NCBI GenBank assembly: GCA_937899625.1
Contig: CALCCB010000163.1
Span: forward strand, 1 to 64,000
Direction of reading: 5' to 3'
Source of the DNA: an uncultured Bacteroidota bacterium
GTDB lineage: Bacteria > Bacteroidota > Bacteroidia > Flavobacteriales_D > Crocinitomicaceae
Length of the DNA: 64,000 bases
Below, in pieces: positions 35,533 through 41,259 of this stretch. The notes below the pieces were generated by a model. The model was given only the letters and a program-made list of their open reading frames with translations, searched no databases and was not told the DNA's origin. The first letter of the stretch is position 1; every line of letters begins with the position of its first letter. The position numbers and the translations under genes are program-made.

Positions 35533-36069
35533 TTGAATATGATGAACAAAAGAGTAGAAGAAGCATTGAATGAACAGATCCAGAAAGAGGCATCATCATC
35601 TCAGTTTTATCTTGCTATGGCTTCTTGGGCCGAAAACAACGGGTTAAATGGTACAGCAATGTTCATGTACACCCATTCAGACGAAGAAAGATTTCATATG
35701 CTGAAGCTGGTGAAGTTTGTAAACGAACGTGGAGGAAGAGCCTTAATTCCTGCAATCGAGTTGCCACCAAGAGATTTTAAAAATCTTGAGAATGTATTTG
35801 AATTACTACTTGAACATGAAATAGGGGTAACTGAGAGTATCAACAATCTTGTTGATATCTGTTTACAGGAGAAAGATTATACAACACATAATTTTGTTCA
35901 ATGGTATGTTTCTGAACAGTTGGAAGAAGAGGCATTGGCCAGAACGATCTTGGATAAGTTAAGATTGATAGGAGGAGATAAAGGTGGAATGTATATGTTT
36001 GACAGAGACCTTGAAAATTCTGCAATTCAACCTGCTCCGGCGAATACAGCTAAGCCGAACGCGTTTTAA
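35533..36069 (+). CDS. non-heme ferritin
   Basis: LNEQIQKEASSSQFYLAMASWAENNGLNG...SDEERFHMLKLVKFVNERGG; annotated start or the nearby upstream ATG. Confidence 0.93.
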   Translation: MNMMNKRVEEALNEQIQKEASSSQFYLAMASWAENNGLNGTAMFMYTHSDEERFHMLKLVKFVNERGGRALIPAIELPPRDFKNLENVFELLLEHEIGVTESINNLVDICLQEKDYTTHNFVQWYVSEQLEEEALARTILDKLRLIGGDKGGMYMFDRDLENSAIQPAPANTAKPNAF

Positions 36070-36071
36070 AA

Positions 36072-39000
36072 ATGCGATTATTGCGCCTGCTATTACTTAC
36101 AGCACTGTTCCTTTCTTTCAAAGGGACGTGGGCGCAAACAACCTATCGATTTAGAAATTATTCGATCAGCGACGGGTTATCTCAAAGTTCAGTTACCTGC
36201 ATTTTACAGGATGAGAACATGTCATTGTGGATCGGGACTCAAGATGGTCTTAATCGATTTGACGGAAAGAACTTTGAGATCTTCAATTCCGACGGAACAG
36301 ATGGTTTGGAAAGCGAGTATGTAAAGTGCTCACTTAAAGACCAAAAAGGAGCCTTGTGGTTCGGAACAACCAACGGTTTAACCAAGTATGATCCGAACAC
36401 TGAAAAATTTAAGACCTATCATCTTAACACAACTGCTGCTCTTCAGATCGAAAGTATGGACATCGATAATGATGGGCAGATTTGGCTGGCAACAACAGGG
36501 AATGGCGTCCTGAAATTCTCAACCAAAACAGAAAAATTCATTCAGCAAGAGGGCCTTATACCCGCCAGAAAAGTTCAGTCGTTATTGTTGGCCTCAAGTG
36601 GAGACCTATTCATTAATACGGAGGATAAAGGGTTGTGGCGAAAAGGGGCGTCATCTTCAAAAGCTGAACAGCTATTTTTACCAGGAAAAGGATCCCTGCC
36701 CTTAACCATAAATAAAATTACAGAAGCTAGGCAAGGAGAGGTTGTGTTTTCCACGAGTCAAGGACTCTTTCAATACGAGATCACAACCCAGGAGTTGAAG
36801 CCCATCTATGAAGAATTAGACAATTCTTTTGGGATTATGGCTATTTCTGATGTGTTCTATTTATCTGAAGAGAACACGTGGTTTGTTGCCACGGTGAATA
36901 AAGGCCTTTTTTCTATACGTCCCGACGGAACAATTTTACAGAGCACCCAGGACATCTTCCAGAAAAGCGCCATTTTATTCAACGACCTTAGTGTATTGTT
37001 CAGGGATAACTCTGGTACAATGTGGGTCGGAACAGACAGGGGTCTTTCTAGTTTTGATCCGAAGAATCAAGGATTCCTTGGTGTTGGGCCGAGTGGAAAC
37101 TTGGAACATGGAATTCCAAATCCCAACGTTTGGAGCTTTGGAGAGGATAAATCAGGAAAATATCTATATATCGGCACGGATAAAGGTATCTCTAGGTTCA
37201 ATAGAAATACAGGTAAATTCGAACAATATTATCGTTCTTACGGCACTAATAAAAATCTCGAAGCAGCAGAAATCACCGTGCTTTCAATACATGTTATTGA
37301 TGCAAATCATGTTTTAGTAGGTTGTATTGACGGCCTATTTGAACTTAATATCACCTCACCATACGAATATTCTTTTAGGGAAGTTGGTGGATTTAAAGAC
37401 GATGAAACAAGACAACGACACACAAGGATTTATACCATACTTCCCTATAAGAAGGATAAATATTTTCTGGCCACAAAAGGAGGTGTAGTTCTTATTGATA
37501 TTAAAAAGAAAACAACACAAGTTTTCGAATACAATCCAAAGAACCCAAGAGAGAGTATCAGCCTGGGTGTTTGTCGTTTAGGGATCAAGGATAACTCAGG
37601 AAGATATTTATTCGCAACCAGTTCTGGCGGATTGAATGTTTTGGAAGAAAAAGGTGAATTCTTGAAGATTGTTCCCTATCGCTACAACTCGTATTTAACG
37701 AAACACACGAAGGACTACTTATCTTCTATCTGTCAAACAGGAAAAAATGAATATTGGTTTGGAACCTTTGGTTCAGGACTTCTTTACTGGAATGAAAAAA
37801 CGAAGGAATCCAGAGTATATACAAAGAAAGATGGACTTCCTAACAATGTGATCTATGGAGTGCTTCAAGATGGACTAACAGACCTTTGGATGAGCACCAA
37901 CCGAGGATTATGCAGATTTAACAGGTTCTCAGGAGAAACGATCAACTACACAGAGGTAGACGGTTTGATGAGCAACGAGTTCAATCTTGGGGCGTATCTT
38001 AAAGCGAAGAATGGAGAATTCTATTTTGGGGGTATTTACGGGTATAATTTTTTTGATCCAAAGAATCTGACCCTTCATAACCCAGATGTTGTTGTTAAGA
38101 TCACAAAACTAAAATTAGACAAGACTTGGTTGAAACCTGGAGAAGAAGGTTCTCCATTAACAAAACCCCTTTCAAAACTTGATGTTTTAGAATTGTCGTA
38201 CCGGCAGAGAAGTTTTACAGTGCGCTTTCAGTCTTCAGATCTTAGCAATCCTGAATTAGTAAACTATAAGTACATTCTTGAGGGAACAGAGGAGGGTGAG
38301 GTATTACTCGGATCATCGAACGAACTTCGTTTCACATCGCTCTCTTCGGGAACATATAAGCTCAAAATCTTTGCTAGGATTGGTGATGGACCATGGGGAT
38401 CACCAGCGATATTAAACATCAGTATAGTGTCACCATTCTGGGCTTCTTGGTGGTTTATTTTGATTGTGATCGCAGTATTGGCTATCGGCGTAAGGTTATT
38501 CATCCGAAAACGAATTGAAGATGCAAGAAGAGAGCAAGTGAGGCTGGAAATGAAGGTTGCTCAAAGAACTCGTGAGATACGAGCTCAGAACATTCAGATC
38601 GAACGACAAAAACAACAGTTGGAGAAGGAAAAAAACAAAGTGGAAGAAAACCAGCGTTTGCTCCAGATCGAAAAAGACAAGACCGAAAAACTGTTGAAGA
38701 ACATTATTCCTGACGAGATCACAGAGGAGTTGAAAAATAAAGGCCGCGCCAGTGCGAGAGCCTATAAAACGGTTTCGGTGCTCTTTACAGATTTTGTCGG
38801 ATTTACAAAGATCGCCGACCGACTAACCCCAATGGAGCTCGTAGGAAAACTCGATGTTTACTTTAGAAAGTTTGATGAGATCATCGTAGAAAACAACCTT
38901 GAGAAGATCAAAACGATCGGTGATGCATACATGTGTGCTGGTGGTGTACCAGTGCGAAACAACACAAATCCGATTGATGCTTGTCTTGCTGCTTTGCAGA

Positions 39001-39989
39001 TCCAGGACTATATGACAAAACTGAAGTATGACGCCATTGCAAACGATGGTGAATACTGGGAGTTAAGACTAGGGATCAATACAGGAGAAGTAACCGCCGG
39101 GGTAATCGGTAGCGAACGTTTAGCGTATGATGTCTGGGGGGCAACCGTGAATCAAGCACAACGAATGGAAATGCTGGGTGAGCCGGGTAAAGTAACGATC
39201 ACCGGAAACACATTTAAGCATATTGAACCGTATTTTGAGTGTACATTCAGGGGTAAAGCGCAATCAAAGAGTCGTGGGCTGATCGATATGTATACTGTTG
39301 ATAGGATCAAACCGGAACTGTCTGTAAATGGAGAAGGAATCTATCCGAATGAGCGTTTTCAACAGATCGTTAATCTTCACCATTATAGTTCGATCAACTA
39401 TTACAAGGCAGAAAGACACATTATGAAAGTACTAGAAAAAGGCCTTTCAGATAAACTCCACTATCACAGTATTGCCCACACAAAGGATGTGGTGAAGGCG
39501 GTGGAACGAATTGCTTTAAGCGAAGGGGTAACCGATGAAGGGCTTTTCTTATTAAAGTCTGCTGCGACCTACCATGACGCCGGCTTTGTGGAGCAGTACG
39601 ACAAGAATGAACCGATTGGAGCGAGAATGGCAGATGAGATCCTTCCAAAATACGGCTATACCGAACAACACATTCAAACGATTAAAGAATTGATCTTCGT
39701 TACCCAGATCCCACATCAACCAAAGAACAAGCTGGAAGAGATCATGTGTGACGCTGACCTCGACTACCTTGGAAGAGATGATTTCCATGAGATTGCGGAT
39801 CGATTGAGAAGAGAGCTAAAAGAACACGGTAAGATTGATAGTGATCGTAAATGGGATGAGATTCAGGTAATTTTCCTGACTCAACACAAGTATTTTACAG
39901 AAACATCTATTAGCACGAGAAGGGCAAAAAAACTCCAGAATCTTGATGAGGTCAAAGAACGACTGGAAAGAGATGTATACCCCGATTGA
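36072..39989 (+). CDS. Reg_prop beta-propeller / Y_Y_Y sensor fused to class III adenylate cyclase and C-terminal HD domain
   Basis: Signal peptide, repeated LWIGT(Q/N)DGLNRFD propeller repeats, Y_Y_Y-like segment, TM (WWFILIVIAVLAIGVRLFI), coiled-coil, VSVLFTDFVGFTKIADR...KTIGDAYMCAGG...DVWGATVNQAQRM cyclase, and HSIAHTKDVV...TYHDAGF...CDADLDYLGRD HD domain. Confidence 0.92.
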   Translation: MRLLRLLLLTALFLSFKGTWAQTTYRFRNYSISDGLSQSSVTCILQDENMSLWIGTQDGLNRFDGKNFEIFNSDGTDGLESEYVKCSLKDQKGALWFGTTNGLTKYDPNTEKFKTYHLNTTAALQIESMDIDNDGQIWLATTGNGVLKFSTKTEKFIQQEGLIPARKVQSLLLASSGDLFINTEDKGLWRKGASSSKAEQLFLPGKGSLPLTINKITEARQGEVVFSTSQGLFQYEITTQELKPIYEELDNSFGIMAISDVFYLSEENTWFVATVNKGLFSIRPDGTILQSTQDIFQKSAILFNDLSVLFRDNSGTMWVGTDRGLSSFDPKNQGFLGVGPSGNLEHGIPNPNVWSFGEDKSGKYLYIGTDKGISRFNRNTGKFEQYYRSYGTNKNLEAAEITVLSIHVIDANHVLVGCIDGLFELNITSPYEYSFREVGGFKDDETRQRHTRIYTILPYKKDKYFLATKGGVVLIDIKKKTTQVFEYNPKNPRESISLGVCRLGIKDNSGRYLFATSSGGLNVLEEKGEFLKIVPYRYNSYLTKHTKDYLSSICQTGKNEYWFGTFGSGLLYWNEKTKESRVYTKKDGLPNNVIYGVLQDGLTDLWMSTNRGLCRFNRFSGETINYTEVDGLMSNEFNLGAYLKAKNGEFYFGGIYGYNFFDPKNLTLHNPDVVVKITKLKLDKTWLKPGEEGSPLTKPLSKLDVLELSYRQRSFTVRFQSSDLSNPELVNYKYILEGTEEGEVLLGSSNELRFTSLSSGTYKLKIFARIGDGPWGSPAILNISIVSPFWASWWFILIVIAVLAIGVRLFIRKRIEDARREQVRLEMKVAQRTREIRAQNIQIERQKQQLEKEKNKVEENQRLLQIEKDKTEKLLKNIIPDEITEELKNKGRASARAYKTVSVLFTDFVGFTKIADRLTPMELVGKLDVYFRKFDEIIVENNLEKIKTIGDAYMCAGGVPVRNNTNPIDACLAALQIQDYMTKLKYDAIANDGEYWELRLGINTGEVTAGVIGSERLAYDVWGATVNQAQRMEMLGEPGKVTITGNTFKHIEPYFECTFRGKAQSKSRGLIDMYTVDRIKPELSVNGEGIYPNERFQQIVNLHHYSSINYYKAERHIMKVLEKGLSDKLHYHSIAHTKDVVKAVERIALSEGVTDEGLFLLKSAATYHDAGFVEQYDKNEPIGARMADEILPKYGYTEQHIQTIKELIFVTQIPHQPKNKLEEIMCDADLDYLGRDDFHEIADRLRRELKEHGKIDSDRKWDEIQVIFLTQHKYFTETSISTRRAKKLQNLDEVKERLERDVYPD

Positions 39990-40035: not shown

Positions 40036-40387
40036 ATGAAAAAGGCAACCTATTTTCTCATAGTACTTTTTACAATTGCTTATAGCTGCCAGAAACCTGA
40101 TATTCCGCAAAATCAGCCGGCTCATGCAGGTGTTCAATCGGACCGCGTGGAACTATGTTGATAATGGCACAGGAGAGACATTTAGGATCAGCTGGGACGC
40201 AGATGTACTTTATGGAAATGCTGTTGATTCCTATGATTTGGACAATAATGGCGTTCAGCAAACCAATTATCTGGCATTCAGACGATTTGAACTAGTGGGA
40301 AACACAAAATTTCCAAAGTACGGCTGGATAGAGATAGATTGCACCGACAAGAACAATCCTAAGTTGATCCGCTGGGCAATGCAATAA
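40036..40387 (+). pseudogene. apparently frameshifted small lipoprotein
   Basis: MKKATYFLIVLFTIAYSCQKPDIPQNQPAHAGVQS reads in one frame to a stop at 40159-40161; coherent RTAWNYVDNGTGETFRISWDADVLYGN... continues in the +1 frame to 40387. Confidence 0.55.
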
Positions 40388-40431: not shown

Positions 40432-41259
40432 TTAACTGAACAAAATACTCTGACCATATTTCCCACTGATATCAATTGGGTTTACGATAAGGGCAGGAAC
40501 TTTTGCATCATTCGTAATAATGTACTGCTCATAGTTGGTTCCCAAACCACTCAAGATACCTCCTTTATGTAGGTTCATGATCGCGATAAGGTCCGCATCT
40601 ATATTAACAGCATGTTTAACTACTTCTTTATCAAAACCAGAACTAGGCACTACTGTTGCTGTCATTTCAATCTCTCTTTCAGAGAAGAATTTCTTCGCAA
40701 ACTGGATGTTCGCCTGAACCTGGTGCTGAAGGAACTCATCCGTCTCATCTGGCGTGATCACATGAACACGAGACTTGAAGTAAGTAGCAAGGTTAGCAAC
40801 AATAGCCAGTTTTTGTTTGGTTTCTTTATTTAGGTCCATTGGAACAACGATATCGTCATAACCTGTTTCCTTAATTCCTTTTTCTTGAACAATGATGAAT
40901 GGAACAGAAGAACTGGTTACCACCTTGAGCGCGTGGCTTCCTGTAATATGCTGCCATCCATGTGCACCATGAGTTCCCATAAAGATCAACTCAGCGTGAT
41001 GCTCTGCAGCGAAATCACCGATTTCTTCAAAAATAGACCCTAAACGAACGTAAGGGATTAACTGTGCTCCGCTATCCTTATGGGCAGCAAGAACAGCACT
41101 TAACTTTCCCTCTGCCTCATTGATATCCTTTTCCTTAGGGACAACATGCAGCACATAAATTTGAGCGCCAAGGGGTTTTGCAGTTGCGATAGCGTGCTCT
41201 AAAGCAATATCAGCTACCGGTGTAAAATCATGGGGTACAATAAAGGTCTTCGTTTTCAT
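40432..41259 (-). CDS. universal stress protein (tandem UspA domains)
   Basis: FIVPHDFTPVADIALEHAIATAKPLGAQIYVLHVV; ELIFMGTHGAHGW; second Usp-like half. Confidence 0.93.
   Translation of the reverse strand: MKTKTFIVPHDFTPVADIALEHAIATAKPLGAQIYVLHVVPKEKDINEAEGKLSAVLAAHKDSGAQLIPYVRLGSIFEEIGDFAAEHHAELIFMGTHGAHGWQHITGSHALKVVTSSSVPFIIVQEKGIKETGYDDIVVPMDLNKETKQKLAIVANLATYFKSRVHVITPDETDEFLQHQVQANIQFAKKFFSEREIEMTATVVPSSGFDKEVVKHAVNIDADLIAIMNLHKGGILSGLGTNYEQYIITNDAKVPALIVNPIDISGKYGQSILFS

Follow-up and report, generated by a model that had tools for sequence, protein, structure and literature searches.

We analysed a window of 64,000 nucleotides (nt) of DNA, the whole stretch considered here, from an uncultured Crocinitomicaceae bacterium of the Bacteroidota (assembly GCA_937899625.1, contig CALCCB010000163.1, positions 1-64,000, forward strand). 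An intact open reading frame (ORF) with an ATG start encodes a 1305-amino-acid (aa) protein that joins a periplasmic propeller sensor to a class III cyclase and ends in an HD domain, which is probably a compact relative of class I cyclic nucleotide phosphodiesterases (PDEs). The parts of the gene, each with its basis, are as follows.

36072-39989, plus strand: whole gene, 1305 aa, in the order propeller sensor, transmembrane helix, coiled coil, class III cyclase, HD domain (ORF, Pfam, motifs)
36072-36137, plus strand: predicted signal peptide, aa 1-22, MRLLRLLLLTALFLSFKGTWAQ (sequence; cleavage site inferred)
36138-38426, plus strand: periplasmic sensor, Reg_prop propellers and Y_Y_Y (aa 725-785) (Pfam; structure matches to sensors of hybrid two-component systems, HTCSs)
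38436-38504, plus strand: transmembrane helix, aa 789-811 (hydropathy; one strong hydrophobic segment)
38505-38711, plus strand: signalling coiled coil, aa 812-880 (sequence; helix 2-43 of the cyclase-HD model)
38754-39299, plus strand: class III cyclase catalytic domain, aa 895-1076 (Pfam, catalytic residues, solved relatives)
39327-39986, plus strand: HD domain, aa 1086-1305, putative cyclic nucleotide phosphodiesterase (Pfam scan of the family, model, Foldseek, PDE profile alignment)
39465-39479, plus strand: H1132-x3-H1136, aligned to PDE4D H160 and H164 (homologue conservation, profile alignment)
39573-39578, plus strand: H1168-D1169, aligned to PDE4D H200 and D201 (homologue conservation, profile alignment)
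39756-39758, plus strand: D1229 in the CDADLD motif, aligned to PDE4D D318 (homologue conservation, profile alignment)
39864-39875, plus strand: Q1265-x2-F1268, aligned to PDE4D Gln369 and Phe372 (column survey, profile alignment, 20 later HD domains)

Pfam analysis of the ORF identifies Reg_prop in five stretches (E 1.6e-23) and Y_Y_Y at 725-785 (E 3.5e-10), and the sensor resembles HTCS sensors of solved structure (4a2l, E 3e-78; 3v9f; 3ott). The protein shares with the HTCSs of Bacteroidota a periplasmic Reg_prop and Y_Y_Y sensor and a transmembrane helix; unlike them, it has a cyclase and an HD domain in place of histidine kinase, receiver and AraC output, and because Pfam finds none of these three on the ORF we do not class it as an HTCS. 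Guanylate_cyc (PF00211) matches residues 895-1076 (E 4.7e-44; 150.6 bits against a cut-off of 21.9), and adenylate and guanylate cyclases are the solved structures nearest to this domain. The six residues for catalysis and specificity are all present: D907 and D951 for the metals, K947 and D1020 for adenine, and N1027 and R1031 for the transition state, within the motifs FTDFVGFT (aa 905), KTIGDAYM (947), YDVWG (1019) and NQAQRM (1027). The protein belongs to the class III nucleotidyl cyclases and is predicted to convert ATP to cyclic AMP (cAMP).

The HD domain receives no Pfam or NCBIfam call on this protein alone and emerges at the level of the family, where 47 of 56 aligned members match PF01966 HD (best E 8.6e-12), the L002 paralogue does so above the cut-off, and 23 of the 56 match PDEase_I weakly (best E 4e-4). 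Two results obtained with the C-terminal domain as a single query were rejected: a carbamoyltransferase match from Pfam/NCBIfam proved spurious when the family-wide scan gave HD instead, and troponin C matches from a phmmer search of the PDB, which returned nothing else, were noise. An AlphaFold2 model of the domain is all-helical and confident (predicted local distance difference test, pLDDT, 93; predicted TM-score, pTM, 0.87), and a model of cyclase and HD together is good per domain (pLDDT 86), with a pTM of 0.52 that does not settle their relative placement. Residues H1132, H1136, H1168, D1169, E1180, T1211, D1227, D1229 and D1231, most of them in the motifs HYHSIAHT (1130), YHDAGF (1167) and CDADLD (1226), are invariant in 78 homologues gathered with six search patterns, one of which was EEIMCDAD; the residues other than D1227 and D1229 lie outside that pattern, and later genome searches were profile-based. 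The family matches, motif residues and confident model establish the C-terminal domain as a member of the HD superfamily. Together with Pfam, hydropathy and the cyclase motifs, these results bear out the domain order of the original prediction, which was made from the sequence alone, and likewise its reading of adenylate-type cyclase residues (K947/D1020, D907/D951, N1027/R1031) and of an intact H...HD...D motif.

The HD domain starts about ten residues after the cyclase ends, and this order recurs across the 78 homologues and again in genome-wide searches made without sequence patterns, so the linkage is beyond chance. A cyclase catalytic residue is lost in 8 of the 78 fused homologues, and the HD residues are lost in none. 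The cyclase-HD proteins at loci L059, L060, L080 and L041 have lost a metal Asp of the cyclase (D to N in the first three) with the HD domain intact, and are possibly PDE-only sensors.

Comparison of the HD model with the PDB using Foldseek returned 2pq7, an HD hydrolase of no characterised function, as the top match (E 1.7e-4), followed by a set of top matches that are nearly all class I PDEs (PDE4 and PDE5 catalytic domains; probability 1.0, E ~1e-3) and include YpgQ. An unconstrained profile alignment of the HD family with PDE4D, PDE5A and PDE9A (reference sequences identical to PDB chains 5wh5, 1udt and 6a3n) reached E 1.6e-5, a significance attained only after addition of PDE5A and PDE9A, since PDE4D as a single sequence was not significant (probability 5%). 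This alignment pairs H1132, H1136, H1168, D1169 and D1229 with H160, H164, H200, D201 and D318 of PDE4D and places the invariant Q1265 and F1268 on Gln369 and Phe372, with low per-column confidence at these last two. When the PDE columns after D318 were shuffled, the invariant Gln reached the Gln369 position in 0 of 150 trials, a control that bears on the placement of Q and not on the alignment score, which stems from the N-terminal part and was equal in 150 of 150. In PDE4, Gln369 and Phe372 hold inhibitors (PMC11311937) and by inference the base too. The class I signature, stated as H(X)3H(X)25-35D/E (PMC4222275), is present as H1132-x3-H1136-x32-D1169. The domain resembles class I PDEs (PF00233) in fold and in the succession of H-x3-H, HD and the catalytic Asp, after which the profile alignment tentatively puts Q-x2-F.

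Phylogenetic analysis places the HD domains on two sides of a 100/100 branch, a cyclase side with all cyclase-fused members and stand-alone genes, and a sister side with HD-PycTM proteins and some stand-alone relatives. The column of Q1265 follows this division, with Q in all 55 cyclase-fused and all 5 stand-alone members of the cyclase side and N/T/S/D/E in all 16 sister-branch members, nine of which are HD-PycTM fusions. Twenty further HD domains, profile-recovered from other families and for the most part stand-alone, were chosen as a test of this column that could have failed; both Q and F were present in 20 of 20, an outcome made likelier by the closeness of profile-found domains to the model, and the metal and acid residues were invariant in these domains as well.

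PycTM (PF18967), a Pycsar effector domain, is matched in the HD-PycTM proteins at E 1e-30 to 1e-36. These proteins of ~400 aa are frequent in Bacteroidota (L092, L093, L094, L095, L096, L098, L099, L101, L106), with PycTM confirmed by Pfam in three of the nine and assigned by similar sequence in the rest. They share with the window protein its HD family and a tie to cyclic nucleotide signalling, and differ from it in their sister-branch position, their residue at the Q1265 column, their membrane-domain output and their lack of a cyclase. The HD half looks catalytically intact in all nine, which raises the question of whether it destroys the effector's own ligand. Another sister-branch HD domain (L103:1087-2148), with a predicted membrane tail, has lost the second His and the Asp (H to N, D to V) and is probably non-catalytic. 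On the cyclase branch, an HD domain shares a reading frame with a YitT/DUF2179 membrane protein (L088:10647-12143, 499 aa), and frames of 494 and 489 aa in genomes G204 and G299 suggest more such fusions.

The HD domain and a class III cyclase are each present in 99 of 100 Crocinitomicaceae genomes, and the propeller form in ~84 of the 100 (hand count of HD-containing frames of 1078 aa or more). Nine genomes, several of them small, have HD in frames of ~525-550 aa (G021, G047, G058, G074, G080, G099, G017, G056, G088), a length to be expected for cyclase-HD lacking the propeller; in a group of small genomes with a frame of ~525 aa, the sensor seems to have been lost and the cyclase-HD unit kept. 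The genome containing the window has only two strong class III cyclases and only two HD domains of this kind, one per cyclase, the second pair forming a 564-aa REC-cyclase-HD protein on contig C1. Copies in Bacteroidales have the same architecture as the window protein, and cyclase-HD extends to further families and to proteins with a different sensor region (REC, short N-termini). Across a phylum sample the HD family was found in 38 of 99 genomes, mostly unfused, and it occurs both as a stand-alone gene and fused to PycTM. A class-wide sample of 119 genomes (thresholds E <= 1e-40 for HD and E <= 1e-28 for a strong class III cyclase) divided into 56 with both, 50 with neither, 10 with HD only and 3 with cyclase only, counts that ignore shared ancestry; four of the 10 HD-only genomes gave weak matches (E 1e-41 to 1e-43) in the range of PycTM-type proteins. 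Stand-alone HD genes are found ~40 nt (41 nt) downstream of two cyclase genes (L087) and divergent from and adjoining a cyclase gene (L088). The domain search and architecture count proposed with the original prediction, which found Reg_prop, Y_Y_Y and cyclase directly and HD via its family, thus show a common architecture: the HD domain, singled out there as the unusual part, is ordinary for this lineage, and an entire branch of Bacteroidota retains its pairing with the cyclase. The fusion is common but not, as far as we found, already characterised, with no description in the literature covered, from which subscription journals were mostly absent.

The protein carries the complete catalytic residues of two enzymes, and its HD branch is strictly linked to class III cyclases. 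Sequence, fold and co-occurrence best support the make/break switch suggested by the original prediction, with the HD activity still predicted, and we favour with moderate confidence a reading in which one protein both makes and breaks cAMP, the latter by a compact HD domain related to eukaryotic class I PDEs. A ligand would bind the periplasmic propeller sensor, and the signal would pass through the single transmembrane helix and the coiled coil to the cyclase, driving dimerisation; the homodimeric class III adenylate cyclase would make cAMP from ATP, and the C-terminal HD domain would hydrolyse cAMP in place to leave a short, local or thresholded signal. If the HD domain hydrolyses the cyclase product, how large the cAMP signal becomes, how far it reaches and how it decays would all be set by the same polypeptide. 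What we infer here is the homodimer, the adenylate specificity, the PDE activity and any reciprocal control exerted by the sensor.

Several observations weigh against this reading. PDE activity is a prediction for every member of the HD family, and similarity to class I PDEs is remote at the E-values of the Foldseek matches (~1e-3). The conservation of D1227 and D1229 in the 78 homologues is partly built in by the EEIMCDAD search pattern, per-column confidence is low around Q1265, and shared ancestry is ignored by the co-occurrence counts. The window protein has no larger class I helical bundle and does not keep PDE4 H204, the second His of HDxDH, reading HDAGF at a site where some Bacteroidales copies read HDxGH. 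PF00233 PDEase_I has no match in this protein, and its best match in any member (E 4e-4) is below the cut-off; with the cut-off unmet and the second His absent, we do not file the domain as PDEase_I. YpgQ (5dqv) has a TM-score of 0.62 to the HD model, above that of the PDEs, and a protein that both makes and breaks cAMP would run a futile cycle if the two activities were not regulated apart.

The likeness to YpgQ points to a domain that could be an active phosphohydrolase on another substrate, such as pyrophosphate or nucleoside triphosphates, a reading we consider unlikely. YpgQ, which we take to be a pyrophosphohydrolase, is a close fold match (TM-score 0.62/0.72), and YpgQ, 2pq7, yedJ and BH2835 stand ahead of the PDEs by E-value in the profile search; H-x3-H is not specific to PDEs and occurs in BH2835. 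Removal of pyrophosphate would pull cAMP synthesis forward and so make the HD domain an accelerator rather than an off-switch. 2pq7, YpgQ and yedJ (3gw7) are the nearest solved relatives by sequence and fold; unlike the window domain they are not cyclase-fused, their sequence similarity to it is lower, and their substrates are other ones or not known. A pyrophosphate substrate would leave unexplained the Q-x2-F pair that tracks the cyclase, and the PycTM-linked sister branch likewise points to cyclic nucleotides. We regard as improbable a domain that binds cAMP or another nucleotide without turnover and feeds back allosterically on the cyclase. Ligand binding is within the range of HD folds, the domain directly follows the cyclase, and binding would avoid a futile cycle on one chain, but the metal and acid residues are invariant in the 78 fused homologues and the 20 later HD domains, whereas a domain that only binds should have shed some of them, as at L103. 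Membership in an anti-phage, Pycsar-like cyclic nucleotide system, suggested by the fusion of the related HD branch to a Pycsar effector, is very unlikely because this genome has no PycTM (PF18967; the TIR effector type was not searched for), the sensor is a periplasmic HTCS-type propeller, the cyclase residues are adenylate-type, and, in contrast to a mobile defence island, the gene is vertically kept with fixed neighbours in almost all genomes of the family.

Two neighbouring genes in the window recur beside the Reg_prop-cyclase-HD gene.

35533-36069, plus strand: ferritin gene, whose end lies 2 nt ahead of the cyclase ORF (ORF list, homology)
40432-41259, minus strand: tandem universal stress protein (USP) gene (conserved neighbour; candidate nucleotide-binding partner)

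The fixed neighbours of the gene in the family are ferritin, RNase R and USP. Most Crocinitomicaceae copies with a flank share the ferritin-cyclase arrangement, so the two genes are probably one operon. In the window and the flanks L029-L063, which span two taxonomic orders, the USP gene adjoins the Reg_prop-cyclase-HD gene in three orientations: convergent downstream in Crocinitomicaceae, divergent upstream in many Bacteroidales, and co-directional downstream in five. The mycobacterial USP Rv1636 is a cAMP-binding protein that serves as a sponge (PMC11107214), which makes the neighbouring USP a candidate effector or sink; the genome also encodes three CRP-like proteins. Directly after the cyclase gene, at 40036-40387, a small lipoprotein-like gene (MKKATYFLIVLFTIAYSC...) meets a stop after ~40 codons with the remainder in another frame, and a relative (L016) has a 217-aa frame at this position; the window copy is likely broken or mis-assembled.

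A precedent for a regulated make/break protein is CAPE (COMBINED AC with PDE), found in Marchantia and other streptophytes (PMC5159850, PMC8115329), where adenylyl cyclase and PDE activities of MpCAPE have both been measured (PMC5159850). The window protein resembles CAPE in joining a class III adenylyl cyclase to a class I-type PDE on one polypeptide, as read from its sequence, and differs in order (CAPE has an N-terminal PDE and a C-terminal cyclase), in its shorter HD domain of ~220 aa, and in its periplasmic sensor and transmembrane helix; the cyclase-HD fusion must have arisen independently of CAPE. More tentatively, we propose that the HD domain may represent a bacterial family, so far unrecognised, of class I-like cyclic nucleotide PDEs whose members partner class III cyclases across Bacteroidia as fusions or as stand-alone genes, with Q1265 telling a purine (cAMP) branch from a PycTM-fused sister branch for other cyclic nucleotides. 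If these readings are true, Q versus N/T/S would be a sequence marker that sorts cAMP-linked HD proteins from those linked to Pycsar-type effectors, and the window protein would offer a bacterial model for the logic of plant CAPE. Bacteroidota would hold a dedicated, overlooked cAMP-degrading enzyme resembling eukaryotic class I PDEs, many of them would carry cAMP synthesis and degradation on one sensor protein, and the role of cAMP in Bacteroidota would become directly testable with one purified construct.

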